From assembly GCA_021464245.1 (NCBI GenBank), contig JADCRB010000043.1, positions 2,305,480 through 2,369,479 of the forward strand: DNA of 64,000 bases. The letters run 5' to 3'. Position 1 is the first letter of the stretch, and each line of letters opens with the position of its first letter. The notes beneath the pieces are model-generated. The model was not told the DNA's origin and searched no databases. It worked only from the letters and a program-made list of their open reading frames with translations. Shown piece after piece: positions 32,798 to 50,590 of the stretch. This DNA is from Carallia brachiata (lineage: Eukaryota > Streptophyta > Magnoliopsida > Malpighiales > Rhizophoraceae). The position numbers and the translations under genes were made by a program.

Positions 32798-32802
32798 CAT
32801 TT

Positions 32803-33047
32803 TGTAAACTAATCAAAAAAAAAAAAAAAATTATTATATGGTTGGCAGCCGCCAACCTTGAAGGCTGGCAGCTGCCAACCTAATTAATGCCACCAACCAT
32901 TTGGTTGGTGGCTGGCAGGCTTGGGGGAGGCCTATAAATGGCCTCCCCCCAATTAATAGGCAGCAAGCAGAGAAGAGAAAAGAAAAAAAAAAAAAAAGAG
33001 AAGCCAGCAGCGAAGCGCGCAAGAAAAAAAAAAAAAAGAAAAAAAAG

Positions 33048-33094
<47 letters not shown>

Positions 33095-33500
33095 AGAGAT
33101 AGTAAAAAAAAAAAAAATCGAAATATTACAAATCCGGCTGGGATTAAACCTCATACGGCCCTCAGCAAAATCCAGGCAACTCATCCGAGAACAAGTCCAT
33201 TCGACCCTCGGTGAAATTAAGTCAGATCAGCTCAGATCGAGTCTCTACGGTTCCTAAACGTAGTCAAAACATCCAAATCAGACACAGTTTCAGTCTATCC
33301 AGTTCAAGAAAAAGCGGTGGAAATTATTTCTGTCCAGATCAAGCTCGTGCAGCCCTTGACGGAGTCAAAAAAGGAACACTAATCGGAGGATCTACGGAGA
33401 TCGACCCCACGTAAATTTTCTTTTACTTTACAATTTTTATTTGTAATTTATTTTTGTATTTTCGAGTTTAATTGTTTTAGCTCGAAATTTACGCTTTACA
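32803..33500 (+). repeat. 5' LTR (698 bp)
   Basis: Begins TGTAAACTAATC and ends GCTTTACA. It contains tandem palindromes, then a TATA box (32933-32939) placed exactly between two perfect 10-bp inverted arms (32923-32932 and 32940-32949). A long A-rich tract with poly-A runs occupies 32980-33115. Relative to the 3' LTR it has about 28 extra bp near 32850. Confidence 0.95.
32923..32949 (+). promoter_or_regulatory. LTR TATA box inside a perfect palindrome
   Basis: GGGGGAGGCC, then TATAAAT, then GGCCTCCCCC: ten paired bases on each side of the TATA box. The same arrangement is kept in the 3' LTR at about 42931-42957. Just upstream, CACCAACCA TT TGGTTGGTG forms another inverted repeat. Confidence 0.8.
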
Positions 33501-33506
33501 AATTTT

Positions 33507-33524
33507 TGGCACGCTCGGTGGGAC
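33507..33524 (+). other. Primer-binding site
   Basis: TGGCACGCTCGGTGGGAC begins six bases after the 5' LTR end. It starts with TGG, the complement of tRNA CCA. The tRNA was not identified. Confidence 0.6.
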
Positions 33525-33544: not shown

Positions 33545-33726
33545 GTTCCTAAAAAAAAAAAAGAGGTAAAAGGGGAGAGAGAAAAAAAAAAGTAAAAAAA
33601 AAAAAAAAGTAAAAAGTAAAAAGTAAAAAAAAAAGTAAAGTAAAAAGTAAAAAAAAGTAAAAAGTAAAAAAAAAAGTAAAAAGTAAAAAAGTAAAGTAAA
33701 AAAGAAAAAAAAAAAAAAAAAAAAAA
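33545..33726 (+). repeat. AGTAAAA-type low-complexity leader repeat
   Basis: Short tandem AAGTAAA units interspersed with A-runs between primer site and gag. Confidence 0.8.
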
Positions 33727-33750: not shown

Positions 33751-35452
33751 ATGGCACCGAAAAGGAGTACAACTGCTGCCACAAAAAAGAAGGCAACGGC
33801 TCCATTGCCTGCATCAACTACCCTACCTGGGTACGCAGGTCCAGAAACCCGGGGACGGACACAATTTCTTGCCGTCCAAACCCGACAAAATGTCGAAATG
33901 GAGAGTCCACAGCGCACAACAGGATCTCTCCCCTGACTCTCTTGCCGCATGGAGGAGTCGATCACCCACCCCGATCGAAATCGGGGGCAACACGACGAAG
34001 CCTGCTCAACAAAATCCGACTCACACAGAAGAATCAGAAGAGTTTTCTCCCCCAGTCTTTCCCGGAGCCTCATCTGTTGCCGTCATGATGACCAACACAA
34101 CCAGCACAGAGGAAAGATTTCAGAATTGGAGAACAAAATTTTGCTGCATCAGAGTCGTGGAGGAAAAAGATCAACAGATCGCAGCTCTCAAAGGAAAAGC
34201 CCCGATCCAAGTTGATCCCGAAATCCGCGAGGAGCAACCATATCCACCCGGTTTCACTCCAGAAGCCACACCAGCCGACGTCTTCCCTGCAGAAAAGCGA
34301 CCAGGTAGTTCTACACAGCTGCCACCCTCAAATTCTGTAGCTTCGCTATCTGTTCAACAATTGCAGGAAATGATAGCCAATACGATCCGACTGCAACAAG
34401 CTACATCCTTCCAAGGATCACAGATGTACGTCAAACCGTACACCAGACGGATCGAAAGTCTCAACATGCCCTTGGGCTACCAGCCGCCCAAATTTCAACA
34501 ATTCGACGGACGAGGCGATCCCAAACAGCACATCGCCCACTTCGTTGAAACCTGCAACAACGCAGGGACTTACGGAGATCTCTTGGTGAAGCAGTTTGTT
34601 CGTTCACTCAGGGAGACCGCTTTCACCTGGTTCATAAATCTTGAACCAGAATCGATCGACAGTTGGGAACAGCTACAACGAGAGTTCCTCAACAGATTTT
34701 TCAGCACTCGAAGGACGGTAAGTATGATGGAGCTTACCAGCACCAAACAAAGGAAAGGAGAGCCCGTTGTCGAATACATCAACAGATGGCGTGCCCTCAG
34801 CTTGGACTGCAAAGATCGCCTGACGGAGACTTCTGCCGTAGAGATGTGCATCCAGGGAATGCATTGGGAGCTGTTATACATCCTGCAGGGTGTCAAACCC
34901 CGAACTTTCGAAGAACTGGCGACCCGCGCACATGATATGGAGATAAGCATCCAGACTTCCGGAGGCACGGTTCCCATCCAGTTGGACCAGCAAGGGGGCA
35001 GAAGGGAGATTAAGAAACCCAACAGCTCCGGAAAAGGAAAGAAGTGATGAGCTGTTGAAGCCGCACCAGTAAAAGTGGGCGCCAAAGCTAAGGTAAATCC
35101 TCCGACCCAAATAACTCAGCCAAAACAACAGGAAAGGCGGAAGGTGACATTGCGAGAGCTGGAGCAGAAGCAGTATCCATTCCCCGACTCAGACGTCCCC
35201 GACATTCTTGAACAACTCTTGGAGGCGAAGCTGATCGAACTCCCAGAGTGCAAGCGGCCGAATGAAAAGGATCGAGTCAGCGATCCAAGATTCTGCAAAT
35301 ATCACCGGATAGTAAGTCATCCGACGGAAAAGTGTTTCGTCCTGAAGGAGCTAATCATGAAGCTCAAAAGCCAGAATAAAATCATTCTGGACCAGGAAGG
35401 CGTAACCTCGGCAAACCAACCACCATCACTTCAAAACCATCAGAAGAGGTGA
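33751..35452 (+). pseudogene. gag of the Tat element, frameshifted
   Basis: Nucleocapsid polyprotein region. The initiator frame opens at 33751 and is broken near 33930. The next frame runs to a stop at 35045-35047 and carries the retrotransposon gag domain (about 34440-34950, motif QREFLNRFFS). A third frame (35075-35452) carries a Cys/His knuckle-like segment, CKYHRIVSHPTEKC. At least two one-base shifts separate the parts. Confidence 0.85.
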
Positions 35453-35679
35453 CACACCGTAAGGAGGAGCCGCTCGACAACAAAAAGTCGACAACGGAGA
35501 AGGTATATGAAGCTCTCCAAACCCTTCTCGCTAACCCTCAGCTTTTAGCTTTGCAATCAACAGAAGTGTGGCAAAATCAAGTCAGCAATACTCTCCAGAC
35601 CTCAGCTGAATCAGCCATCAGTAATAGCTCACGGAGCAACAGGCGGACCAAAATCACGTCGGATGTTACTCTGCTATCT

Positions 35680-36389
35680 CATTTTCAGATGAGGATCTCC
35701 TGCTGGGGTCCAAACCCCACAATCGGCCGCTGTATGTATCAGGCTATGTGAGAGAACAGAAGGTTCGACGTATTCTGATCGACGATGGCTCAGCAGTCAA
35801 TATTATCCCAAAATCCACCATAAAGGAGCTCGGCATCGGCATTGATGAATTATCAGACAGCCGCTTGATGATTCATGGCTTTAATCAAGGAGGACAGAAA
35901 GCAATTGGGATGATTCGCTTGGAGCTAACTATCGGTAATCTCACTTCTAGCACTCTATTTCACGTGATTGATGCACGTACCACATATAAGATGTTGCTAG
36001 GACGACCGTGGATTCATGGAAATGGAGTTGTGCTCTCAAGCCTGCATCAGTGCTTCAAGTACTACAATGGTGGCGTTCAAAAGGTCAATGCTGACTTAAA
36101 GCCGTTCGATGATGCTGAATCACATTTGGCGGATGCAGTCTTCTACACTGACACAGACAATCCGGAGATCATTCCGTCAAAAGCTACTTGGACTGGGGGC
36201 ATCCACAAAAAGGGAAAAGCTGTCGAAGAACCTGCCAATGCCCAACCCCAGGCTCCAACAAATGAAAAGCTGCCACAGCCTGCTGAACCGTCCGAAGGAT
36301 GTTGCATCTTCAAGCTCCACTCCAGTCCTACGCTATGTGCCGAAGTCACGACGCTCAGAAGGTCAACCCCCTTTCTCTTATTGTATTGA
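35680..36389 (+). pseudogene. Aspartic protease domain of the Tat element
   Basis: Preceded by an LLLGSKPHNRPLYVSGYV-like stretch in another frame, then the active-site region ILIDDGSAVNIIP at about 35770-35810 and the LLGRPWIH flap region near 36000. It is retropepsin-like and typical of plant gypsy elements. Frames are interrupted on both sides. Confidence 0.85.
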
Positions 36390-36817: not shown

Positions 36818-38913
36818 GTGAAGTCAGAGGTTCCATTTCATGTCACAATTAGCGAGGAGGAGTCCGACTCATCAGATGGTGAAGTGAAGGAGGCTCCCCC
36901 GGAACTTGAAGATGGTGGCCAAGCAACTGTTGATGAACTCAAGGAGGTCAATCTTGGCTCTCCGGAAGATCCTCGACCTACATTTGTAAGTGCTTTACTT
37001 ACTGCAGAAGAAGAGCAAGAATATGTTCAGGTATTAAGTCAATACAGGGACGTGTTCGCATGGAGTTACAAAGAAATGCCTGGACTTGACCCAAAAATTG
37101 CGGTGCATCGTCTAGCAGTAAAGAAGGGTGTCCGTTCTGTCAAGCAGCCACAACGACGGTTCCGCCCGGAACTCATTCCACAAATCGAGGAGGAGGTGAA
37201 CAAGCTGATCAATGCCGGCTTCATCCGAGAGGTCACCTACCCAACGTGGATTGCCAACATTGTCCCGTAAGAAAGAAGAATGGACAGTTGAGGGTATGTG
37301 TTGATTTTCGAGATCTTAACAAGGCCTGCCCGAAAGATGACTTTCCATTGCCCATAACGGAGATCACAGTCGATGCAACAACGGGTCACGAAGCATTGTC
37401 TTTCATGGATGGTTCTTCAGGCTATAACCAAATCAGAATGGCACCAGAAGACGAGGAGTTGACAGCATTCCGCACCCCAAAAGGTATATACTGCTACAAA
37501 GTTATGCCGTTTGGATTGAAAAATGCTGGCGCCACTTATCAACGTGCTATGCAAAAAATTTTTGATGACATGCTGCACAAGATTGTAGAATGTTATGTTG
37601 ATGACTTAGTTGTAAAGACTAAGAAGCGCAAAGACCACCTCGAGGATCTCAAGACAGTGTTCGAAAGACTTCGGAGGCATCAGCTCAAAATGAACCCTCT
37701 CAAGTGCGCATTCGGTGTCACATCAGGAAAGTTTCTTGGGTTCGTGGTGCGCCATCGTGGAATCGAAGTTGATCAGTCAAAGGTTGAGGCAATTCAAAAG
37801 ATGCCTGAACCTAAAAACCTGCACGAGCTGCGAAGTCTACAAGGAAAGCTGGCCTACATTCGCCGTTTCATCTCCAATTTAGCTGGGAGATGTCAACCTT
37901 TCCATCGGTTGATGAAGAAGGATGTCAACTTCGAGTGGGACGAAGCTTGCAGCAAAGCCTTTGAGAGCATAAAGAAGTACCTTTCCAATCCACCGGTCCT
38001 AGGTGCTCCAATTCAAGGAAAGTCGTTGATTCTCTACATTGCAGCGCAGGAAAGATCTTTGGGAGCCTTGCTTGCACAGGAAAACGAGCAGGGAAAGGAA
38101 GTTGCCCTGTACTACTTGAGCAGAACACTAAACGGTCCGGAGCTGAGTTATTCGCCCATTGAAAAGACATGTCTAGCACTGTTCTTTGCCATTGACAAGC
38201 TGAGGCACTACATGCAAGCTCACACGGTACGTCTCATTGCCAGAGCTGATCCTGTCAAATATATCTTATCCAGACCAATCTTGTCAGGACGACTTGCCAA
38301 GTGGGCAGTAATCCTACAAAGCTACGACATTGTCTACGTGCCTCAAAAAGCAGTCAAAGGACAAGCTCTAGCAGACTTCCTTGCAGATCACCCTGTTCCG
38401 TCAGATTGGGAGTTCACAGATGATCTTCCAGATGAAGAGGTCTTTTACATTGAGACACTACCACCATGGACGATGTTCTTTGATGGTGCAGCAAGGCGTG
38501 ATGGTGCTGGTGCCGGCATAGTGTTTGTCACTCCTCAACGACAAATACTACCATATGCTATCATTCTCGGTGAGTTATGTTCAAATAATGTTGCTGAATA
38601 CCAGGCTTTGATCATTGGTCTTCAAATGGCTGTCGATATGAAGATTCCAACTATAGAAGTCCATGGAGATTCCCAGCTCGTCATCAACCAACTTACAGGA
38701 TTGTATGACGTGAAGAAAGAGGACCTTGCGCCTTACCATCAACGTGCTCGACAGCTAATGGATGAATTTGAAAGCATCACCTTGGAGCATGTGCCTCGAC
38801 GAGAAAACACTCAGGCAGACGCGTTGGCTAACCTGGCACTTCTCTTGCAAAGTCAGAAATCCAGGCTACAGTTGTTGCGTATGCCAGAAATGGATAGTGC
38901 CACAAAGAGATGA
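36818..38913 (+). pseudogene. Reverse transcriptase, RNase H and archaeal-type RNase H
   Basis: RT with VCVDFRDLNKACPKDDFPLP, the MPFGLKNAGATYQ motif and the catalytic YVDDLV (about 37593). RNase H follows (LYYLSRTLNGPELSYSPIEK). A second RNase H of the archaeal type (MFFDGAARRDGAGAG, NVAEYQAL, RRENTQADALAN) lies at about 38460-38850; this pair marks the Tat lineage. A one-base loss at about 37268 makes a TAA stop between the N-terminal RT part (36818-37270) and the rest (37246-38913). Confidence 0.93.
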
Positions 38914-39060: not shown

Positions 39061-40783
39061 ATCTCAAGGATGCTCTGTATCGAAGGTCTTTTGATGGAGT
39101 TCTACTTCGCTGCCTAGCCAATGAAGAGGCAAAACAGGCTCTCACTGAAGCACATTCTGGTGTTTGTGGCGGACATCAATCGGGCCTAAGTTGCACTTCC
39201 AACTCAGAAGGATGGGATACTACTGGCCAACCATGGTACGTGATTCAATTGAGTTTGCTAAAACTTGTCAAGCTTGTCAATTTCATGCAATTACATACAT
39301 CAACCACCGGAGCCACTGCATCCAACTGTCTCATCCTGGCCCTTTGAAGCTTGGGGTCTCGACTTAGTGGGGCCCTTGCCAAAGTCATCCCTGGGTCACC
39401 TGTACATCCTCGCAGCAACCGACTACTTCTCAAAATGGGCTGAAGCCATTCCACTTAGAGAGGTAAAGAAGGAGCATGTTGCCAATTTCATCCGGACTCA
39501 GCTGATCTATCGCTATGGAGTCCCTCGATTCATCATCACTGATAATGGTAAGCAGTTCTACAACAGCTTAATCGACAAGCTCTGCGCGAGTTCAAGTTCA
39601 AGCAGTACAAGTCATCCATGTACAATGCCCCAGCAAATGGCTTGGCCGAAGCATTCAACAAGACCTTATGCAACCTGTTGCGGAAGGTAGTCTCTAAATC
39701 CAAAAGAGATTGGCATGACAGAATTCCGGAGGCATTATGGGCGTATCGTACAACTTACCGGACTCCAACACAGGCGACGCCATACTCACTTGTCTACGGT
39801 GTCGAAGCAATACTGCCGTTGGAAACACAGATTCCATCCCTGCGCATGGCTGTTCTGGAAGGACTCACACAGGAGGAGAATGCTCGCCTACGTCTGGATG
39901 AGTTAGAAGCCCTCGATGAAAGGAGGCTCGAAGCACAACAAGCAACTTGAGTGCTACCAAGCCCGGCTCACCAACATTCAACCGCAGGGTCCGCCCTCGA
40001 TCTTTTCAAGTTGGAGACTTTGTTCTTGCAGTGCGACGGCCCATCAACATGAAGCATCGGCCTGGTGACAAGCTTACTTCCAATTTCATTCGGACTCAGC
40101 TGATTTATCGCTATGGAGTCCCTCGATTCATCATCACTGATAATGGTAAGCAGTTCTACAACAGCTTAATCGACAAACTTTGCGAGAAATTCAAGTTCAA
40201 GCCAGTACAAATCATCCATGTACAATGCCCCAGCAAATGGCTTGGCCGAAGCATTCAACAAGACCTTATGCAACCTGTTGCGGAAGGTAGTCTCTAAATC
40301 CAAAAGAGATTGGCATGACAGAATTCCGGAGGCATTATGGGCGTATCGTACAACTTACCGGACTCCAAACAGGCGACGCCATACTCACTTGTCTACGGTG
40401 TCGAAGCAATACTGCCGTTGGAAAACACAGATTCCATCCCTACGCATGCTGTTCTGGAAGGACTCACACAGGAAGAGATGCTCGCCTACGTCTGGATGAG
40501 TTAGAAGCCCTAGATGAAAGGAGGCTCGAAGCACACAACAACTTGAGTGCTACCAAGCCCGGCTCACCAACACATTCAACCCCAGGGTCCGCCCTCGATC
40601 TTTTCAAGTTGGAGACCTTGTTCTTGCAGTGCGACGGCCCATCAACATGAAGCATCGGCCTGTGACAAGCTTACTTCCAAATGGGATGGGCCATACCTAG
40701 TGCAGGAGGTCTATACTCACAACGCTTACATGCTGTCAGACCAAGAAGGTGTCCGAATCGGCCCATCAATGGTAAATTTCTGA
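39061..40783 (+). pseudogene. Integrase region with an internal tandem duplication
   Basis: An HHCC zinc-binding region (about 39130-39290, ending TCQACQFHA), then the DDE core: Asp in GLDLVGPLP (39357), Asp in ITDNGKQF (39538), Glu in NGLAEAFNKTL (39640). The C-terminal part ends near 40783 (SMVNF). 39482-40079 is repeated at 40080-40676, so the second half of the core and the C-terminal domain occur twice. Numerous single-base differences break the frame in both copies. Confidence 0.9.
39482..40676 (+). repeat. About 598-bp tandem duplication within integrase
   Basis: Unit 1 39482-40079, unit 2 40080-40676. The junction shares the bases TCCAA. The copies differ by scattered substitutions and many one-base indels. 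Confidence 0.9.
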
Positions 40784-40889: not shown

Positions 40890-41130
40890 CCGATCTGAAA
40901 GTCCAAGCGAAAACCCAAATCCAAAAGTCCAAGTTCAAAACCCAACACTTGAGCCCAAACTCAAAACCCAACTCAAAAGCCTGAAAACCAAATCCAAAAG
41001 TCCAAGTCTAAAGCGCAAACACTCGACCCAATTCCAAAAATCCAAGTCTAGAAGCCCAAACACTCGACCCAAATCCAATCCAAAGCCCAAAACCCAAAAA
41101 TTCCAAGTCCCAAACAGTCCAACCCAAGTT
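40890..41130 (+). repeat. Degenerate short repeats after integrase
   Basis: Imperfect repetition of CCAAATCCAAAAGTCCAAGT and AACACTCGACCCAA motifs, spaced about 25-45 bp. Preceded by an A-rich tract (40805-40880). Non-coding. Confidence 0.75.
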
Positions 41131-41280
41131 CAAAATCCATCCAACTCCTGGCCCGCATGAGTATAAACTGTGAACGGTCCAAAAATATAAACCGACGGAG
41201 GGTTTGATTCTGAAAGTCAGCATCAGTCTCAACCGATCTTCACCACATACCAAGACCTTTGCTCTTCTGCCGCAAGAAAG

Positions 41281-41728
41281 ATGGAACCAGTTGCAGAACC
41301 TCAAGACAAGGGAGAAGAAAGGTCACCTCGCACAAGGTGGCAACCGACCATGGCACAACTGCAAATTTTGGAGGAAGTCTTCTACAACGATGGAGGTATT
41401 GTCCCTAACTCTACACAGATTCTCCAACTTGTCTCACGACTTCGCCCGCTAGGGGCAGTCGAAGGAAAAAAATGTATATTTTTGGTTCCAGAATCGGAGA
41501 CATAGGGAAACAGTGGCGCTGAGAGATGGTATTTCCAAAGCACAGCCTGTTGTTCCTATAGTAGATCTCACCAGTACAGCTTCACCCTCAAATGAAGCCG
41601 GCCCAAGTTCTACCACTGCAATGGTCTCTCCACGGTACGTTCATCAAAGCCGTAGCCTATGGGAGCATACATACTGGTCCTGGTGGTTTCACGGACTCAG
41701 CCAAGGGTTCATCCTCCTAGATACTTAA
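41281..41728 (+). CDS. WUSCHEL/WOX-type homeodomain ORF inside the retrotransposon (one-base frameshift)
   Basis: Sense-strand ORF between integrase and the 3' LTR. From ATG 41281 the product reads a 16-residue basic/acidic leader, then RTRWQPTMAQLQILEEVFYN, the helix 1 signature of plant WOX homeodomains. Helix 2 follows (QILQLVSRLRPLG) and an EGK turn. At the A7 run 41466-41472 the frame shifts by one. In the next frame the recognition helix WFQNRR is exactly in place (41483-41500), and the frame stays open to the stop at 41726-41728. Total about 148 codons if the extra base is ignored. No WUS box was recognised in the tail, which is Ser/Thr/Pro-rich. A transduced plant homeobox gene is inferred. 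It could be a relic or active in intact sister elements. Confidence 0.8.
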
Positions 41729-41899
41729 GTCTAGGAGGAATTTTTCTAGCACACAGGAGTTATCCGGCGAACTTTGCCTCTCTTTCCAGAATATTCCGAC
41801 ACATCAACCAGCTGGAAAGCGACGTCGACGTCGACGCCAACATCATCGGCCCACCAGACGAGGTCGAGCTTGACTGGAGTTGCACATCGGGCCCCGCTA

Positions 41900-42000
41900 G
41901 GACGGCCGACAAGATAAGGTGCAACGACTTCTGCAACGACTTCCGCAGCACACGGCAACGACTTCTGCCACACACGGTAACGACTTTCGTGACACGCGTC
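41900..42000 (+). repeat. GCAACGACTTC short repeats
   Basis: Four near copies of AACGACTT(C/T) at 18-24-bp spacing (about 41921, 41934, 41957, 41980). Confidence 0.7.
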
Positions 42001-42178
42001 AGCCGCTGCCTCTTTTGTCTCTTATGCAGGAAAGGGACGTGGATGACCCTACCCGATTCTGCATACCTTTTTTGACTTTTCAAAAAAAAAAAAAAAAAAA
42101 AACTCTTTATTGTTTTGTATATATCCTGCATGCCCGAGTTGTAATATTCACCCCTCAGCTCTTCTTTCTCAAAAGAAA

Positions 42179-42529: not shown

Positions 42530-42830
42530 AGTTATTTGCCTACTGGATCATCCTCACCAGAGCTCTGGAACTTTAAGAGATATAAAAAATCCTTTGCGGG
42601 CTATGGAAGCTCGAACGCACCTGGAGCCAAAACTTCAATTTCTATATTGGCTGGACTGCTAACTTCTTCAAGATCATATCGGTTTCCTATTGCGATCCAA
42701 CAACAGCAGGCATGGTCAAAGATAGAAGACTCCAAGATTCAATGTTCATCAGGACTTTCCAAATTTCAAACTAGACTTCAAGACTCGGTTCGAATTATCT
42801 TTGAAAAAAATCTTTCTTACCGACCCTTGA

Positions 42831-42840
42831 AGTGGGGGCA
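42831..42840 (+). other. Polypurine tract
   Basis: AGTGGGGGCA immediately upstream of the 3' LTR start; plus-strand priming site. Confidence 0.7.
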
Positions 42841-42842
42841 TT

Positions 42843-43495
42843 TGTAAACTAATCAAAAAAAAAAAAAATTATTATATGGTTGGCAGCCTAATTAATGCCA
42901 CCAACCATTTGGTTGGTGGCTGGCAGGCTTGGGGGAGGCCTATAAATGGCCTCCCCCCAATTTGTAATAAGGCAGCAGAAGCAGAAGAAGAAAAGAAAAA
43001 AAAAAAAAAAGAGAAGCCAGCAGCGAAGCGCGCAAGAAAAAAAAAAAAAGAAAAGAAAAAAAGAAAAAAAAAAAAAAGAAAAAAAGAGAGAGATAGTAAA
43101 AAAAAAAAAATTGAAATATTACAAATCCGGCTGGGATTAAGTCTTATACGGCCCTCAGCAAAATCCAGACAACTCATCCGAGAACAAGTCCATTCGACCC
43201 TCGGTGAAATTAAGTCAGATCAGCTCAGATCGACTCTCTACGGTTCCTAAACGTAGTCAAAACATCCAAATCAGACACAGTTTCAGTCTATCCAGTTCAA
43301 GAAAAAGCGGTGGAAATTATTTCTGTCCAGATCAAGCTCGTGCAGCCCTTGACGGAGTCAAAAAAAGGAACACTAATCGGAGGATCTACGGAGATCGAGC
43401 CCACGTAAATTTTCTTTTCTTTTACAATTTTTATTTGTAATTTATTTTTGTATTTTCGAGTTTAATTGTTTTAGACTCGAAATTTACGCTTTACA
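42843..43495 (+). repeat. 3' LTR (653 bp)
   Basis: Same ends as the 5' LTR (TGTAAAC...TTTACA), followed by target duplication CATTT. It is shorter through A-run differences and about 28 bp missing near 42893. Confidence 0.95.
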
Positions 43496-43500
43496 CATTT

Positions 43501-46265
43501 ATCAGTGAATAAACAGATCGTTCAAATGGCTTTTCTATTGAAGTGAACCAAAAAGTTAATATGTTAGTTGCTGAAAATAGGAAGGGGAAGTGGTGGCCAA
43601 TGCTATTTGAGTTGATAATTTAATATTAATTTAATATTTTTCGTCCCGTTATGGTTTAGGTGTGTGTCTTAATATTGATGAATTAACTCGTCCCAATTAT
43701 TTGGATTTTACAGGAGTGCAGTTATTAGTTCACGTCTCGTTAATATTATAGTCAGATATTGGGAAGGCTCGTTAGGTCAAATAGTATTCGAGTGATGAGT
43801 CTATTTCTTGAAAGTAGTTGAATGAGACTTAAATAAATAAAAATATTCTTGTTTCAATTTACAAATTTGATGACTACACACACCTACGATAAATTTTTTT
43901 GATAAAAAAAAAGTGGTGTCTAACGACTCTATTATGGAATATTACGACGTAGCTTAAGAGAGGTGTTCCAAATCCAAACGATTATGATAAGCAGAACAGT
44001 AGAATTGATATAGATATAACTCTAATAATTGTTTTGAGAATGTCCAAACTCTAAATCTTTGGTTTGAAACCATATTTACTATTAAATCTCAACGGTGTGA
44101 TCATAAAAAAAAAAGTTGAACGATGTTAGCAGGATTTAGGATACACACTAAATTGACATAAGAATTAATACTAGCTAACCCCCTCCATCCCTTCAATTAT
44201 TACATATTTTCTATTTCTACTAGTCCTTATCCCTTCTATTGTATTTAAAAATAGGATTATTCTCTGTTGCCATTGTTATCATTGAGTTGACTTCATATAA
44301 TTGTAGCACAGTTGTTGCCTTCTATTTCCATAGTTCCATCGAATTTTCTGGCGTGTCATTCTTTATTGACATATTAATCTTATGATAAGGTCATCAAATC
44401 TCAATCGCTAAAATATGGTAGCATTGATTTTGATCATTTTCTTGCACGCTTGTTTCCTCAGTTCCTTTTTTATTTTTTTTAGTGCATGTTTCTTTTTGTT
44501 TCCTCTATCAGTATATAAATGTGTTTCTTTAAAACACTAGTTAAAGATGAAAAATGTTGAATTCAATTAAATATAATTAACAAAATGATTAAAAAAATTA
44601 ATTAAATAATAATAAAAAAACCTTATTGTTGTATTAATTATATTCAAATTATCAATTTTCCTTCTTTTAGCAGATTCATTAACCTATCACCTTTTGACAA
44701 TGAGAAGACAGCTAAACGAAAGAGAAATTCCCTCTTTTACAGAAAAAACTTTGTTTGCTGTCCCGTCATTTCTTCAAAGCCAAAATATTTTATGAAAGAC
44801 AAAATTTTGATAACATCAAAAATAAAATCATAGTGTGCTCAAAAAATAAAAATTATAGTAATATTAATTGTTTAATGATTAAATTGAGAAAAAGAAAAAT
44901 AAATGAATTACATAATATTACCCAAAGTGATAGTTTAGTAGTAATTTAGTATATCTTCGCAAATTCGAGTTTTATAGGCAATGCTAATGGGACTTTGACT
45001 TCTGAAACTGTCTGGCTTGATCATGATCCACGTGCTCTTAGTTCTCAAACTCATTAATACTATTTGGTCGATTTGAGGGAGACCCACTTAAGCTTAATAG
45101 TGCTTAAGTGGAGGGTCCCTTCTTATAAGTTGGGTTGAATAAAGTCTCACACGGTATAATAAGTCAACTACAGTCCGTAAATCTGATGACCGATATATTT
45201 ACGATACTTTTTTTTTCATTTAGTCAAAAAAAAAAGAATTGCATAATTAAAATGAAGATTTTACTTTAATTTTTTTAGTAAATAAAATTTATTTATAATT
45301 TTATATCACATAATAATATGTGAAATTTATTTAAAATAAAAATAAAGAATAGATTTAAATGACGTGAAATTATTAGTAAAATATATTATAAAAAATCAAT
45401 AAAAATAATAAATCATGTATAATATTACTTTAAAGCACAACATGTAGTAGAGGTTTTCTTTGAGAGTACTATTACAGCATCTAAAGAATTGGTATTCAAA
45501 ATTTTATTTAAATTTAATTATATTTTAATTTGTTGTAACTGTTGTAATATTTTTTGTAATAAAAAATAAAAACATTATTTATTTATTTATTTATTATAAA
45601 AAATATTACAATAATTACAAAAATTTACAATATCATTATATTTGAATATAAATTTTCTGGTGCAATACAATTTTCCATTCTTTAAAATCCCGATTATTCC
45701 TAGATCTCGTAGGCACTAGGAAGGGGAAAAAAAAAAAAAAAGGTAAAGAAAGATGAGGAACCATTCCTAGTAAACAGTAAATGTTATGGGTATATGAAAA
45801 AATTTATACAATATTTATATCGTATAATTAATATATTTTATTATAATTATTTAATTATAATAATAAAATATAAAATATAAAAATTATTTTTTTAATTAAA
45901 TTTTTTTAATATATTATAAAAATACATTAATTAGTGCAGCTCCTAGTCAATATGTCAATTCTCTGCTCCAGAATTAACTAGTCGAAATGGACAGACAGAA
46001 AACTTACAATAATGCATTGCAGACTAATTTGCAAGATCAAAACTTGAGCTTTACATCGCCACTAAACCCGCCGATAATTTGGGCACTGTGAAAGTACAGA
46101 TCAAAAGGATATAAACTCCATGCACTGGAGAAAAATCCCCTGATAACAAAATTTGCCTAGCCAGGTGAAACCAGTCCACCGTGTATGCATCTCTCTCTCT
46201 CTCTCTCTATATATAGCTACAACTTACAGGGGCACTTGTACTAAAATATGGAAGGACAACATGTA
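43501..46265. other. Gene-poor AT-rich region
   Basis: No gene recognised. It contains a strong hairpin at 45077-45119 and a CT microsatellite at 46192-46208. Confidence 0.55.
45077..45119. repeat. Hairpin with 17-18-bp arms
   Basis: Left arm 45077-45093, loop TTAATAGT, right arm 45102-45119. The inner 10 pairs CCACTTAAGC/GCTTAAGTGG are perfect. Confidence 0.75.
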
Positions 46266-47162
46266 TTAGTGCTGTCCCTTTCTGATATGCGATCCCACCA
46301 CACCCACTTCTGTGTTGGGAAAGATCGAAACTTTCTTGCAGTTCTTGGAAAGCCATTTCGATTGCATGTACTTGGCTTTCTCCACGGAGGGACATGAAGA
46401 CCCTTCTCTTTAAGTGATTGTTTTGCAGCTAAGCACAAAAGAGAAATTATCTTATCAAGTCTTTCCTCAGTACCAACAAAAACTGAAGGAAGACTATTGA
46501 TGAGCTCTTTATACGCTTGTGTAGGCCTTGCAACCTCAAACTGAGACTTGAAATCCATATCCACTATCAGCCTTTTTGGTTTCTGATCACTAATATTCCT
46601 GTCCATCATCATCACATCTATATACTCATATTCATCTGTAAAATGAAAAACTTAAAACCCAACAAAAAAAAAGAAGAAGAAGAAAATAAAATCAAATAAA
46701 AAGCCACCAAGAACATTAGAACAATCATGTCAACACGGTTTCATGATCAGTTCACTTAAAACAATTTTGGGCGGAAGTGTGGCACCTTTAGGGTGACCAA
46801 AGCTGGAAACCCAACAGTTTTACAAAGAGAAGCTTCATAACCATCCATTTGCAATTGCATCACCACCCATTTCTTTAGACTACTGGGTTCCCCAACATTC
46901 CTAACGTACTTCAGGACTTTCTGAAGAACCTGAGTCTCAAATCTGTGCCTCCCAGAAGAATTTCCTGAATAGAACTGAGATGATCTTAAAAAGAACAGGA
47001 AAAACAGGTTGACTTGAAGATATCAAAAAAGAACAATAAATACCTGCAAAGTGGATGAGGTTTGTGAAAGAGAGGCTTGGATGATATCTGTGGAGGGGTT
47101 GATTCTGCCTCTATGTAATCTCTTACCATTTGGATCAACTCTTCCTCTTCAATGCTTCCCAT
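46266..47162 (-). CDS. DUF506 (PDDEXK-like) protein, two apparent frameshifts
   Basis: Plant-specific family of unknown function related to PDDEXK nucleases. Exons: 47044-47162, 46786-46984, 46266-46635. Family motifs: DGYEASLCKT, DEYEYIDV, LIVDMDFKSQFEVARPT, LPSVFVGTEERL, LHVPPWRK. Two places need a one-base correction to keep the family pattern. One is just after CKT (about 46811-46818), where the following Trp and the phase of intron 2 fit only in the next frame. The other is just after PPWRK (about 46374-46383), where the usual YMQSKWL motif lies in the next frame. It is either a recent pseudogene or affected by sequence errors. Confidence 0.8.
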
Positions 47163-48370
47163 TTTAATGTATTAATTTCCTTTTTTTTGTGTTTTCTTCT
47201 GGTCAAGAGGAATGATATGCTATATTTATATGAGCTGTGTTTCTGTGTTAAGCAAGTGATCTGAAGCAGTCAACTGTGCTGTGTTTAAAAGTTGGTATTA
47301 CGGGTAGCTAGCCTCTTTCTTATGTGGAATCTGATAAGCTGTGTATATTGTGCTACTGTTCGTTAAAGCAACCTGCTATATGGTCATGGTGAAGTCACCG
47401 AAGAAAAAAGGATGCATATATATAGGATCATGTCGTTATTTTATCATCATCCAATCACTCATGTTATTAATTAATGGTAATCAATTTTCTTTCCAGTTTG
47501 ATCATCATGCTCATTCGATCTTCGGCGTTTGGACAATGAGTTTTTTAAGGTGATTGAATAAAAGTGTGATTATCTTCAATTTAAGTCTATCGATGTGATC
47601 ACAAACATAAATATAATATAATTTTTATTTATTTTTTTTATTAAATTGGAGGGTAATACATATAAAAAATATTATTCTATTGGCTTGTCTCCTTTTGGGC
47701 CCCTGTAATAGTATTGTCTTTGCTGTCAGATGGGTGTTCGATGATCTCTTGTGGTTCCACATTGAATTGGTTGTTGTGAATGCTGTACGGAGGTATTTAT
47801 TAGGGCTCTTTGATGGATAATTAAAGTGCGGAAAAGACAGATGAACGTATTTGAAAAAACACACATTCTATGTAAATATTTAAATTATTAAAAATATATT
47901 AAATTTTAAAAAATAAATAAATTATTAAATATTATTAAATTAATTATATTTTTTAATTCGTCTACTAAAATATTTATATAATAATATCGTTAAAGTAATA
48001 AAAAAAGCAGGTAAAATCTTTGGAGTCATTGGGAAATCTGGGAGATTGGAAAACTGTGCTTTTAGTCTAATTTTCAATGTATGCCCTCAAATGGCCGTGT
48101 ATTTGTTGGACACATCTCGTTTTGTCCAATGAGCAAAGTATGAACATGTTGTGAGAGTAACTCTTGCCATAAAACTCTGTATCAACGATCAATTTCAATT
48201 AACTGGTATCTATACATTTATTAAACTATTTGTTAGTTTGGCAATTGCTAGACTCTCCAATGGGTTCTGCCGCAGACGCAAGGATTGAACTTGCATCAAG
48301 TGTTTGGAAATATGTCGTCAAACTCCGGTGTTTATTAGACACTAAATTTGACTAAATAAAATTGGAAAAT
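47163..48370. other. Upstream DNA of the DUF506 gene
   Basis: TATA-like TATATTTATATGAG near 47220-47233 (reads as TATAAATATA on the minus strand), suitably placed for the DUF506 start. Otherwise AT-rich; no gene seen. Confidence 0.5.
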
Positions 48371-48373
48371 TAT

Positions 48374-49684
48374 GGGACCGTTTGAAGTGGTTTAAATTTT
48401 CTATTTTCTGTTTATTTTTCACAAAAAAAACAGGAAACATGTTTATTATTGATTCTATTTTCTGTTTTTTGTTAAAAAGTTAAAGTGTTTTTTTTTTTTA
48501 AAAAGATTGGAAAAACAATAAAAATAGCCTTCCAATTTTGTTTTTCATTTTTTTTATATACTTTCTCTCACAACTTTTTCTCTCTCTATCCACCCTCTTT
48601 ATCATATCTCTCTTTACTCATCCTCTCTCTATCCCTCTATATTTTTTCTCTCACTACTCTTTCTCTCTCTACCCATTCTCTCTCTACCCTCTATCTCATT
48701 TTTTATCTCTACCATTCTCTGTCTACCCTCTCTCCCCTTTTTCTATCTCTATCATTCTCTCACTACCATCTCTCCCCTTTTTCTATCTCTACCATTCTCT
48801 CTCTACCCTCTCTCTCTCTCTTTTCTCTCTCTACTCATTCTTTCTCTACCCTTTCTCTTTTTCTCTTTCTACCATTATCTCTACCAATTCTGCCTCTACC
48901 CACTCTCTCTCTCTCATTTTTCTCCCTCAACCGTTTTCTCTACTCATTCTCTCTGTGCTCCCTCTCTCTCTCTCATTTTTCTCTCTCTACCATTCTTTCT
49001 TCTTTTTCTTACTCTATCATTCTCTCTACTCGTTCTCTTTCTCTCTTTTCTCTCTACCATTCTCTGTCTACCCATATTCTCTCTCCCTTTTCTTACTCTA
49101 CTATTATCTCTCTACTCTCTCTTTCTTCTTTTTCTCTCTCTATCTAGACTCTCTCTCTTTTTTCTTGTTTTACCATTCTCTCTCCTCATTCTCTCTCTAC
49201 GCTCTCTCTCACTCATTTTTCTCTCTTTATTATTCTCTGTACTCGTTCTTTCTATACTCTCTCTCTCTTTTCTCTCTCTGTCATTTTCTCTACTCATTCT
49301 CTCTCTACCATCTCTCTCTCATTTTTCTCTCTCTACTATTCTATTTACTCATTCTTTCTCTACCCTTTCTCTTTCTGTCATTCTCTCTACTCATTCTCTT
49401 TCTTCTCTCATTCTCTCTCCTTTTTCTCTCTCTACCATTATCTCTACTCATTTTCTCTCTACCCTCTTTCTTTTTCTCTCTCTTTCTCTCGCTCCCATTT
49501 TTCTCTTCATATTTATACTTTTTTTTACCATTTCTCTCACTATCCTTTCTTTATCTATTTTTTTATTCTTATAAAAAAAACAAAAATTGACAGCAATAAA
49601 CACAAAAATTTAACAAACAGCAAAAACAAAAAACAGAAAATAAAAAACAGAAATAAAAAATTGACAGCGTCTCCAAACGGACCC
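48374..49684. mobile_element. Transposon-like unit filled with pyrimidine-rich minisatellite
   Basis: The left end GGGACCGTTTGAAG, followed by TTTCTATTTTCTGTTT, matches the inverted right end GGGTCCGTTTGGAG and its own TTTATTTTCTGTTT. Between them 48560-49510 is almost only C and T on the plus strand, in degenerate units like TCTCTCTACCATTCTC. Long frames read through it give only Ser/Leu/Phe and are artefacts. No coding capacity. Confidence 0.65.
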
Positions 49685-50590
49685 TAAATGTTCCTGATAC
49701 TCTTATTATTTTTTTTTTCAGTTCACATACCTCCAATTTTATATTAGTGAACATTGAGCTATACGTAATGGTTCTTTACTAATTGGTTCTATAAATTAAC
49801 GGGTAATGTAAGTTGACCAACAATTTTTATTTTTTTAACATTTGATTAATTAATGAAGTGTATAAATTTTCTAATTTAATTTAATTTAATTTATCGTTTA
49901 CTCCAAAGTCAGTTAAAACACAAAATTTACTGAAATCGGTCCAGCACATCCCAAGCGAGCGATGTATGGATTGCTTTTTAAGGTCGGATCCGAGCCATCA
50001 AGCCTTCGATCCACCAACGGAAGCCTCTTTCGTTTCTTTGGACATGGATTCGGGCTAAGCCCATACCTGATTTTGTTGAGACGACCCATTAGTTAGAGGT
50101 GGCCTGGAGTTGGACCTCTATATCTTAACCTACTAATCAGCTGGTGTAGCCCAGTTAGCTACCGAGTACTACACCAAAATCCCACCTTCCACCAATCCCC
50201 CTCCTCCACCTCGCCAATAGTGTCTTTTAAATAAATATTTACCACCTGTCAATCTCAGGCCATTTGTTGATAATTGAAAACCAAAATCAAGCATGTCCCG
50301 AGAAGATTGCATTAGTCGTACCCACACAGTAAATTGAGCATTTACACTAGAAGAGCAAATTTCACATTACTTAATGAAAATTACTAATATTTCTCAAAAC
50401 TTTATGGAACTATACGTATATTTAATTCTACTAAAAACTTTAACAGAAATTCAAACATATAGTCTTATAATATGAACAAAATCTTCTAACTAAAATAATG
50501 GTGGTCACATTAAACAGAACAAAAACAAAAACAATGGAGATACTGAGAGTAAGTTTGATGGAAAGATAGCCCAATGGATCAAGGGCTATT
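49685..50590. other. Region without recognised gene
   Basis: 49930-50210 is GC-richer with no convincing frame. The rest is AT-rich. Confidence 0.5.

Follow-up and report, generated by a model that had tools for sequence, protein, structure and literature searches.

A WUSCHEL-like homeodomain ORF carried by a multicopy Tat-lineage LTR retrotransposon in Carallia brachiata

WUSCHEL (WUS) is a plant stem-cell control gene. Plant LTR retrotransposons are already known to take up host genes, and for some of them the B3 transcription-factor domain is described (PMC9289625). A screen of 121 angiosperm genomes described 15 extra domains in LTR retrotransposons, with PMD, G-patch, AIR1, DUF1409, YgdH, L26, B3, ArgoL2 and 2-ODD among those named (PMC9289625). 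Tat/Ogre-like elements of orchids carry a captured 2-ODD (m6A demethylase) domain, and B3 and YgdH (LONELY GUY) were reported in gypsy-type consensuses as domain matches only, without ORF anatomy or a selection test (PMC9289625). Retand elements have antisense TRP28 ORFs, suspected to encode a DNA-binding regulator, between pol and the 3' LTR, together with tandem repeats; none of the sense ORFs longer than 600 bp analyzed there has a known domain (PMC11963269). Env-like accessory ORFs occupy the same interval in sense orientation (PMC7264820).

Analysis of a 64,000-nucleotide stretch of the Carallia brachiata genome (the window, meaning the whole stretch of DNA that was analyzed) revealed an element that resembles each of these systems in part. 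Like the orchid elements, it is of Tat type, carries a host-like domain and belongs to a multicopy family, but its domain is that of a transcription factor and not an enzyme, and the host is another plant. With the B3 and YgdH cases it shares a development-linked plant domain, and with B3, a domain of plant transcription factors, also DNA binding; the folds and the host genes differ. As in Retand, tandem repeats and an accessory ORF for a suspected DNA-binding regulator lie between pol and the 3' LTR, but the ORF is in sense orientation and encodes a homeodomain, and the region from pol to the LTR measures only about 2 kb. Six antisense ORFs of this region contained no Pfam domain, and therefore no TRP28. 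In contrast to env-like ORFs, the ORF has clear homology to a host transcription factor. The main text of the angiosperm survey contains no word starting with "homeo" or "WUS" (PMC9289625), such words are likewise missing from a review of additional ORFs (PMC7264820), and a captured WUS is not mentioned in the accessible part of the Cladopus genome paper (PMC7109043). Titles and abstract openings were searched, a scope that leaves most subscription papers and preprints outside, and yielded no WUS/WOX gene on a retrotransposon. What is new in relation to the literature searched is a stem-cell master regulator that is present hundreds of times and whose DNA-binding domain shows signs of selection.

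The window element was classified as Ty3/gypsy on the basis of TG..CA LTRs, a target-site duplication, a primer-binding site, a polypurine tract and the order PR-RT-RH-INT, in which the protease matches are weak (Table 1). Two RNase H domains follow the reverse transcriptase, a feature of the Tat lineage (PMC9289625), and this fits the lineage assignment made in a sequence-only reading of the window. The ends of the element are complete. The gag-pol region is spread across several frames and the integrase contains a 600-bp tandem duplication, so this copy is not expected to work; a Pfam search with the second integrase frame (39552-39947) gave no match. The LTR pair showed a K2P distance of 0.0366 (646 aligned sites), from which an age of about 1.4 million years is estimated at an assumed rate of 1.3e-8 substitutions per site and year. 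A long A-rich tract between the 5' LTR and gag (33578-33726) is translated as poly-lysine in the gag frame and may contribute to frame noise in this copy. Outside the element, the window contains a CT-rich minisatellite of about 0.9 kb (48561-49490) made of CTCTCTACT... units, around which the GC skew is strong (-0.51 in 48001-50000). Two minus-strand ORFs (46241-46651 and 46756-47171) have, on visual inspection, the appearance of exons from a normal host gene and resemble a DUF506/PDDEXK-like plant protein.

Table 1. Features of the retrotransposon and of its WUS-like ORF, in window positions
Feature	Position	Strand	Remarks
Target-site duplication CATTT, 5' copy	32798-32802	+	
5' LTR	32803-33500	+	698 bp, TG..CA
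TAATTAAT in 5' LTR	32881-32888	+	TATA box at 32933-32939
Putative primer-binding site TGGCACGCTCGGTGGGAC	33507-33524	+	6 bases past the 5' LTR; assigned by position and sequence
gag	33764-35044	+	Retrotrans_gag, E=3.9e-15
Aspartic protease region	35628-36386	+	Pfam matches weak (E about 7e-4), under cut-off
Reverse transcriptase, RNase H and second RNase H (RVT_3)	37090-38910	+	RT_RNaseH/RT_RNaseH_2 plus RVT_3 in one ORF
Integrase, two frames	39262-39947	+	rve, E=2.5e-9 in 39262-39687
Tandem duplication (600 bp), second copy, within integrase	40080-40680	+	96.2% identity to 39482-40083, head-to-tail
Tandem repeats between integrase and WUS-like ORF	40913-41078	+	period about 40 bp
TATAAA, candidate internal promoter	41162-41167	+	about 120 bp before ATG
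Second TATAAA	41186-41191	+	about 96 bp before ATG
WUS-like ORF, frame A	41281-41505	+	MEP start, N-terminal arm, helix 1, helix 2; stop TAG after A7 run
WUS-like ORF, frame B	41453-41728	+	recognition helix NVYFWFQNRRHRE (41471-41509) and linker
Third frame, decayed C-terminal part	41656-42075	+	acidic stretch kept; compared with open copies
Polypurine tract AAGTGGGGG	42830-42838	+	5' of the 3' LTR
3' LTR	42843-43495	+	653 bp, TG..CA
TAATTAAT in 3' LTR	42889-42896	+	TATA box at 42941-42947
Target-site duplication CATTT, 3' copy	43496-43500	+	

The sequence-only reading had proposed a sense ORF with a WUSCHEL/WOX-type homeodomain between the integrase and the 3' LTR, and its place and strand were found as described. 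Frames A and B, the latter containing KNVYFWFQNRRHRE, join at the A7 run, and helices 1 and 2 in the one and the recognition helix in the other are in register on the Pfam Homeodomain profile. The proposed start of the ORF held, whereas the proposed end at 41728 did not, for the ORF continues into a third frame. Because this frame carries the decayed C terminus, the window ORF is interrupted at more than one point; the WUS-box and the EAR-like end are unreadable there. Searching the homeobox profile gave matches for both frames as separate fragments under the curated cut-off (frame A, positions 2-36, E=0.0054; frame B, positions 40-55, E=0.0071). The open ORF of a sister copy, L018, reached 28.2 bits against a cut-off of 22.9 despite FLFQN for FWFQN in its recognition helix. 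Frame A alone retrieved WUSCHEL (PDB 6ry3, E=1.2e-9) and STENOFOLIA (6wig, E=3.3e-7) from the PDB, and the best matches of frame B were again these two structures, weakly (E=0.49 and 0.32) and at the next residues. A chance resemblance to the homeobox is ruled out by the E-values of the separate pieces together with the open copies.

To survey the family, the window's own genome (337.5 Mb) was searched with a 74-amino-acid piece, for which the best 150 of 1573 candidates were scored, and with WUS (130 rows) and WOX11 (150 rows) as further baits. Nine and 14 rows judged to be the host's own WOX genes were left out, and low-scoring rows of the WUS and WOX11 baits were assigned to the element by score. 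Merging the three baits gave the WUS-like ORF at at least 338 distinct places on at least 97 contigs, a count that is a lower bound; the ORF is not confined to the window copy. Eleven of the low-scoring rows from the WUS bait (L080-L090) were read, and the element ORF, broken in several, was present in all 11. At least 195 of the at least 338 places have an open frame of at least 200 codons, which is no proof of a complete C terminus, as it is missing in L041 and L048.

Eighty copies were read, 69 places in L001-L070 and 11 in L080-L090. Since copies were partly chosen, one set mostly for long open frames (184 to 311 codons) and others for divergence, the frequency of open ORFs among them was rejected as a measure. 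Sister elements with an uninterrupted ORF, which the sequence-only reading proposed to seek in related plant genomes, were found in the same genome: 28 of the 80 copies have an open ORF of 201 to 209 codons ending in LEL. Many copies are broken, the window copy included. In 71 rows corresponding to 69 places (L001 is the window copy; L030 is the same place as L031 and was left out of all other sets), an integrase was detected upstream on the same strand in 55 and an LTR downstream in 45, within the stretch examined; among the 55, the integrase matches of L006 and L021 reach only 36% and 33%. Dating by full LTRs was tried on six copies, two of which gave both full LTRs: L060, with an ORF of 205 codons (K2P 0.0136, target-site duplication ACACA), and L048, with a shifted C terminus (K2P 0.0499, ATCGC). 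The low LTR distance and the target-site duplication of L060 indicate recent movement of at least one open-ORF copy. Identical homeodomain DNA was found in 24 of the 46 homeodomains read, and 20 of these 24 came from one set of near-identical matches. Beyond about 180 to 240 bp upstream of the ATG, L054 and L061 did not align with L045 (about 33 to 63% identity), while their ORF and downstream sequence match the family. An integrase was looked for in L054, L061 and L070 and was not found; these three may be truncated copies, or their WUS-like module may belong to another type of element.

The open ORFs share one layout: homeodomain, linker, [TI]LPLFP, acidic stretch and an LEL[RH][LI] end. The WUS-box-like motif [TI]LPLFPEY is present in 26 of the 28 (TLPLFP in 7, ILPLFP in 19) and is lost in L083 and in L087, which carries an inner double frameshift. 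All 28 have the EAR-like LEL[RH][LI] end, where LEL near the end was partly a selection criterion; in the profile search, a Pfam EAR match (E=0.014) fell under the cut-off and elsewhere than the LEL end. WUS itself consists of homeodomain, WUS-box and EAR motif (PMC7203112), and the C terminus of Arabidopsis WUS (P0001) has TLPLFPMH and then LELRLN, the same order as in the element. The element homeodomain shows the loops typical of WOX proteins together with a WFQN recognition helix. The copies form subfamilies A (21 copies) and B (4 copies). In both, the homeodomain carries a one-residue insertion at position 54 (Y in A, H in B), where element and WUS align without gaps, whereas gaps are required for the remaining host WOX genes in the alignment; among WOX proteins, an inserted tyrosine at this position is described for WUS alone (PMC7203112). 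The base-reading residues R38, Q89, N90 and R94 are kept in both subfamilies. Position 36 is S in WUS and R in both subfamilies, and R is also found there in host WOX13 and WOX11, so it is not unusual among WOX proteins. F101, which drives WUS dimerization (PMC7203112), is replaced by D or T. The element differs from WUSCHEL further in a homeodomain that is only about half identical (34/72 to host WUS), in WFQNRR instead of WFQNHK, in a shorter linker, in its transposon carrier, and in an acidic stretch that follows the WUS-box instead of preceding it.

A large protein collection returned no homologue of a 104-amino-acid piece. A 209-residue query from L018, made up of the 203-codon ORF and six codons upstream, gave 148 candidates, of which none reached E<=0.01. 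Homologues must have 5-residue words in common with the query to be detected in this way, and transposons are often masked by genome annotators, so these results do not show that the ORF is absent from other plants. In viral contigs, 18 stretches fitted a pattern and none was confirmed; phage records searched for the WUS-like ORF yielded nothing.

To examine selection across sister copies, as had been proposed, codon models were fitted. The homeodomain showed an omega of 0.44 in 11 distinct sequences (2dlnL 6.7 versus omega=1; P about 0.01, one degree of freedom) and of 0.50 in 21 distinct sequences (2dlnL 9.9; P about 0.002). The larger set derives from 46 homeodomains fitting the unbroken-domain pattern; in four of its 21 distinct rows (L027, L028, L051 and L090) the tail is shifted or inserted, which makes constraint harder to detect. 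L087 and L050, the latter with a short shifted stretch, were left out of the other codon fits and of the cassette comparison below and are included in the open-ORF survey. One tree was used per alignment, though the homeodomain is mosaic, and kappa in the omega=1 fits was obtained by grid search. Outside the homeodomain omega was 1.17, indistinguishable from 1, and for the whole ORF it was 0.82, not significantly different from 1. The check thus came out in favor of constraint for one part of the ORF only: these values are evidence that the homeodomain was kept by selection, and although WUS-box and EAR-like motifs are present, constraint is seen only for the homeodomain.

Comparison of subfamilies A and B revealed that the homeodomain is not uniform in its history. 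In amino acids 39 to 79 (loop, helix 2 and helix 3) pS was 0.417 and pN 0.173, compared with a pS of 0.13 in amino acids 1 to 38 and 0.11 from amino acid 101 to the end; amino acids 80 to 100 gave a pS of 0.17 and a pN of 0.21. The high synonymous divergence of amino acids 39 to 79 indicates a separate history of this cassette. Its dN/dS of 0.32, with a codon bootstrap P of 0.001 in the pair L045-L052, suggests that the cassette was functional during that history. The same bootstrap of pS>pN gave P values of 0.15 (amino acids 1 to 38), 0.48 (80 to 100) and 0.33 (101 to the end) for the other parts. In this pair, the only one for which flanks were compared, identity was 76% inside the cassette versus 93 to 95% in the 180 bp upstream of the ORF and 83 to 97% downstream; farther upstream, in a repeat-rich stretch, it was only 69 to 88%. 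L054 was kept apart in the comparison as a mosaic, being A-like up to about amino acid 50 and B-like from about amino acid 61. These patterns are a sign of recombination between element lineages, which would have placed different recognition helices on a shared backbone.

Two TATA-like boxes precede the ATG by about 120 and 96 bp in 66 of 69 copies, which are kin; simple shuffles contained at least one such box in 20%. An LTR TATA box was located in 34 copies, and in 31 of these TTAATG, AATTAAT or ATTAATT lies within 140 bp upstream of it, versus 16% of dinucleotide shuffles. A second TAAT-type site downstream of the LTR TATA box occurs in only 11 of the 34 and is lost in the 3' LTR of the window. 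These LTR motifs are short and occur in copies of common descent, so their conservation is not independent evidence, despite the shuffle control. The TGAA repeat TGAATGAA, the site that the WUS homeodomain binds best, is absent from both window LTRs. The exchange S36R raises the affinity of the WUS homeodomain for TAAT sixfold (10.6 to 1.67 uM) and leaves TGAA binding unharmed (PMC7203112). With R at position 36 of the element protein and TAAT sites in the LTR, self-regulation through the LTR becomes a concrete hypothesis.

The host genome provides the comparison for the origin of the ORF. In its two ordinary-looking WUS genes (L071, C90, and L072, C65), exon 1 encodes the homeodomain, a short middle exon follows, and the WUS-box lies in the last exon; in L071 the EAR motif TSLELSLN follows the WUS-box, and near the end of L072 an LEL/EAR-type motif was looked for and not found. 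The distance from WFQN to TLPLFP is 1161 bp in L071 versus 98 contiguous codons in the element, which has no intron where the host WUS gene has two. The simplest reading of the missing introns is that a spliced mRNA was probably caught during reverse transcription, and if WUS is the parent, they support the capture of a plant homeobox gene put forward in the sequence-only reading. The other host WOX genes are two WOX13 (L093 and L094), one WOX9-like (L092) and two WOX11-like genes (L091, which was read, and one found as a match).

In a homeodomain tree of 30 sequences, elements and WUS-clade genes are split from WOX9/11/13 at 96/91, at a place where long branches meet, and the elements fall outside the WUS-clade genes, whose clade is weak (86/58). 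Elements grouped with WUS were not recovered and not rejected (p-AU 0.249), and neither elements with WOX13 (p-AU 0.084) nor elements with WOX9/11 (p-AU 0.091) were formally rejected. The length of the element branch (1.72) points either to an old capture or to rapid evolution afterwards. The WUSCHEL/WOX type claimed from the sequence alone is consequently borne out as WUS by the position-54 insertion, the WUS-box-like motif and the EAR-like end, and the phylogeny sets the elements apart from WOX9/11/13 without naming the parent gene. As the tree leaves the parent open, WUS is inferred to be the exact parent from the insertion and the two C-terminal motifs.

Some features would fit a parent other than WUS, such as WOX13, a gene of the WOX9/11 class or another WUS-clade member: WFQNRR and QLQILE of the element resemble host WOX13/WOX11, the identity of subfamily B to host WOX13 (31/70) is close to that to host WUS, and the tree places the elements as described. 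We consider such a parent very unlikely, given that among the host WOX genes aligned the insertion is common only to the element and WUS, that the element carries both C-terminal motifs, and that the 96/91 branch separates it from WOX9/11/13. That the ORF is an artifact of a chimeric assembly, or a host WOX pseudogene that merely happens to adjoin an element, is hardly credible and is refuted by its occurrence at at least 338 places, its constant position relative to integrase and LTR where both lie in the stretch, and the copies flanked by target-site duplications. The reading we favor, held at slightly less than an even chance, is that a Tat-lineage element captured a spliced WUSCHEL mRNA and carries it as an accessory gene whose main selected job is on its own LTR. 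The mRNA would have been taken up in sense orientation between pol and the 3' LTR and kept in the order homeodomain, WUS-box, acidic stretch, EAR-like end. Transcription from the TATA promoter just upstream of the ORF, or from the LTR, would yield a nuclear DNA-binding protein acting through the TAAT sites beside the LTR TATA box, and LTR transcription may in this way be tuned to cells that pass on new copies (meristem, germ line). The recognition-helix cassette would be swapped between element lineages by recombination, in line with a joint divergence of the protein and its LTR targets. More tentatively, and as a rather doubtful possibility, the WUSCHEL-type factor may steer the element's promoter, and perhaps WUS targets of the host as well, such that copying takes place in the stem cells that form the germ line, with cassette swaps changing the DNA targets.

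The protein may instead be directed at the host, acting in trans to mimic or block WUSCHEL at its targets, with self-regulation secondary or absent. The EAR-like end would then recruit co-repressors, and stem cells might be made a better place for the element; the retention of R38, Q89, N90 and R94 and of the two C-terminal motifs in open copies points in the same direction, and since TGAA binding by the WUS homeodomain survives S36R (PMC7203112), the protein might still recognize host WUS sites. We regard this as possible and somewhat improbable, because hundreds of active WUS mimics should burden the host, the part outside the homeodomain shows no constraint and the dimer residue F101 is lost. 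It is also unlikely, in our estimation, that the ORF is a passenger, captured long ago, with open frames stemming from recent bursts of a few source copies and a protein that is not used. Identical homeodomain DNA in 24 of 46 cases, the many broken copies, the apparently unconstrained remainder of the ORF, the nonsignificant whole-ORF test, and a pS reliably above pN only in amino acids 39 to 79 of the representative pair are consistent with it, but an unused protein would not account for a homeodomain omega below 1, for the excess of synonymous over nonsynonymous change in the cassette between subfamilies, or for a frame that stays open in two subfamilies.

If the ORF is expressed, it would permit a direct test of whether Tat accessory ORFs are transcriptional regulators, a guess that was made for TRP28 (PMC11963269), and of whether transposons of plants direct their activity toward stem cells. 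By adding to the number of WUS-like ORFs in the genome, the copies can mislead counts of the WOX family, and they could be raw material for new host genes.
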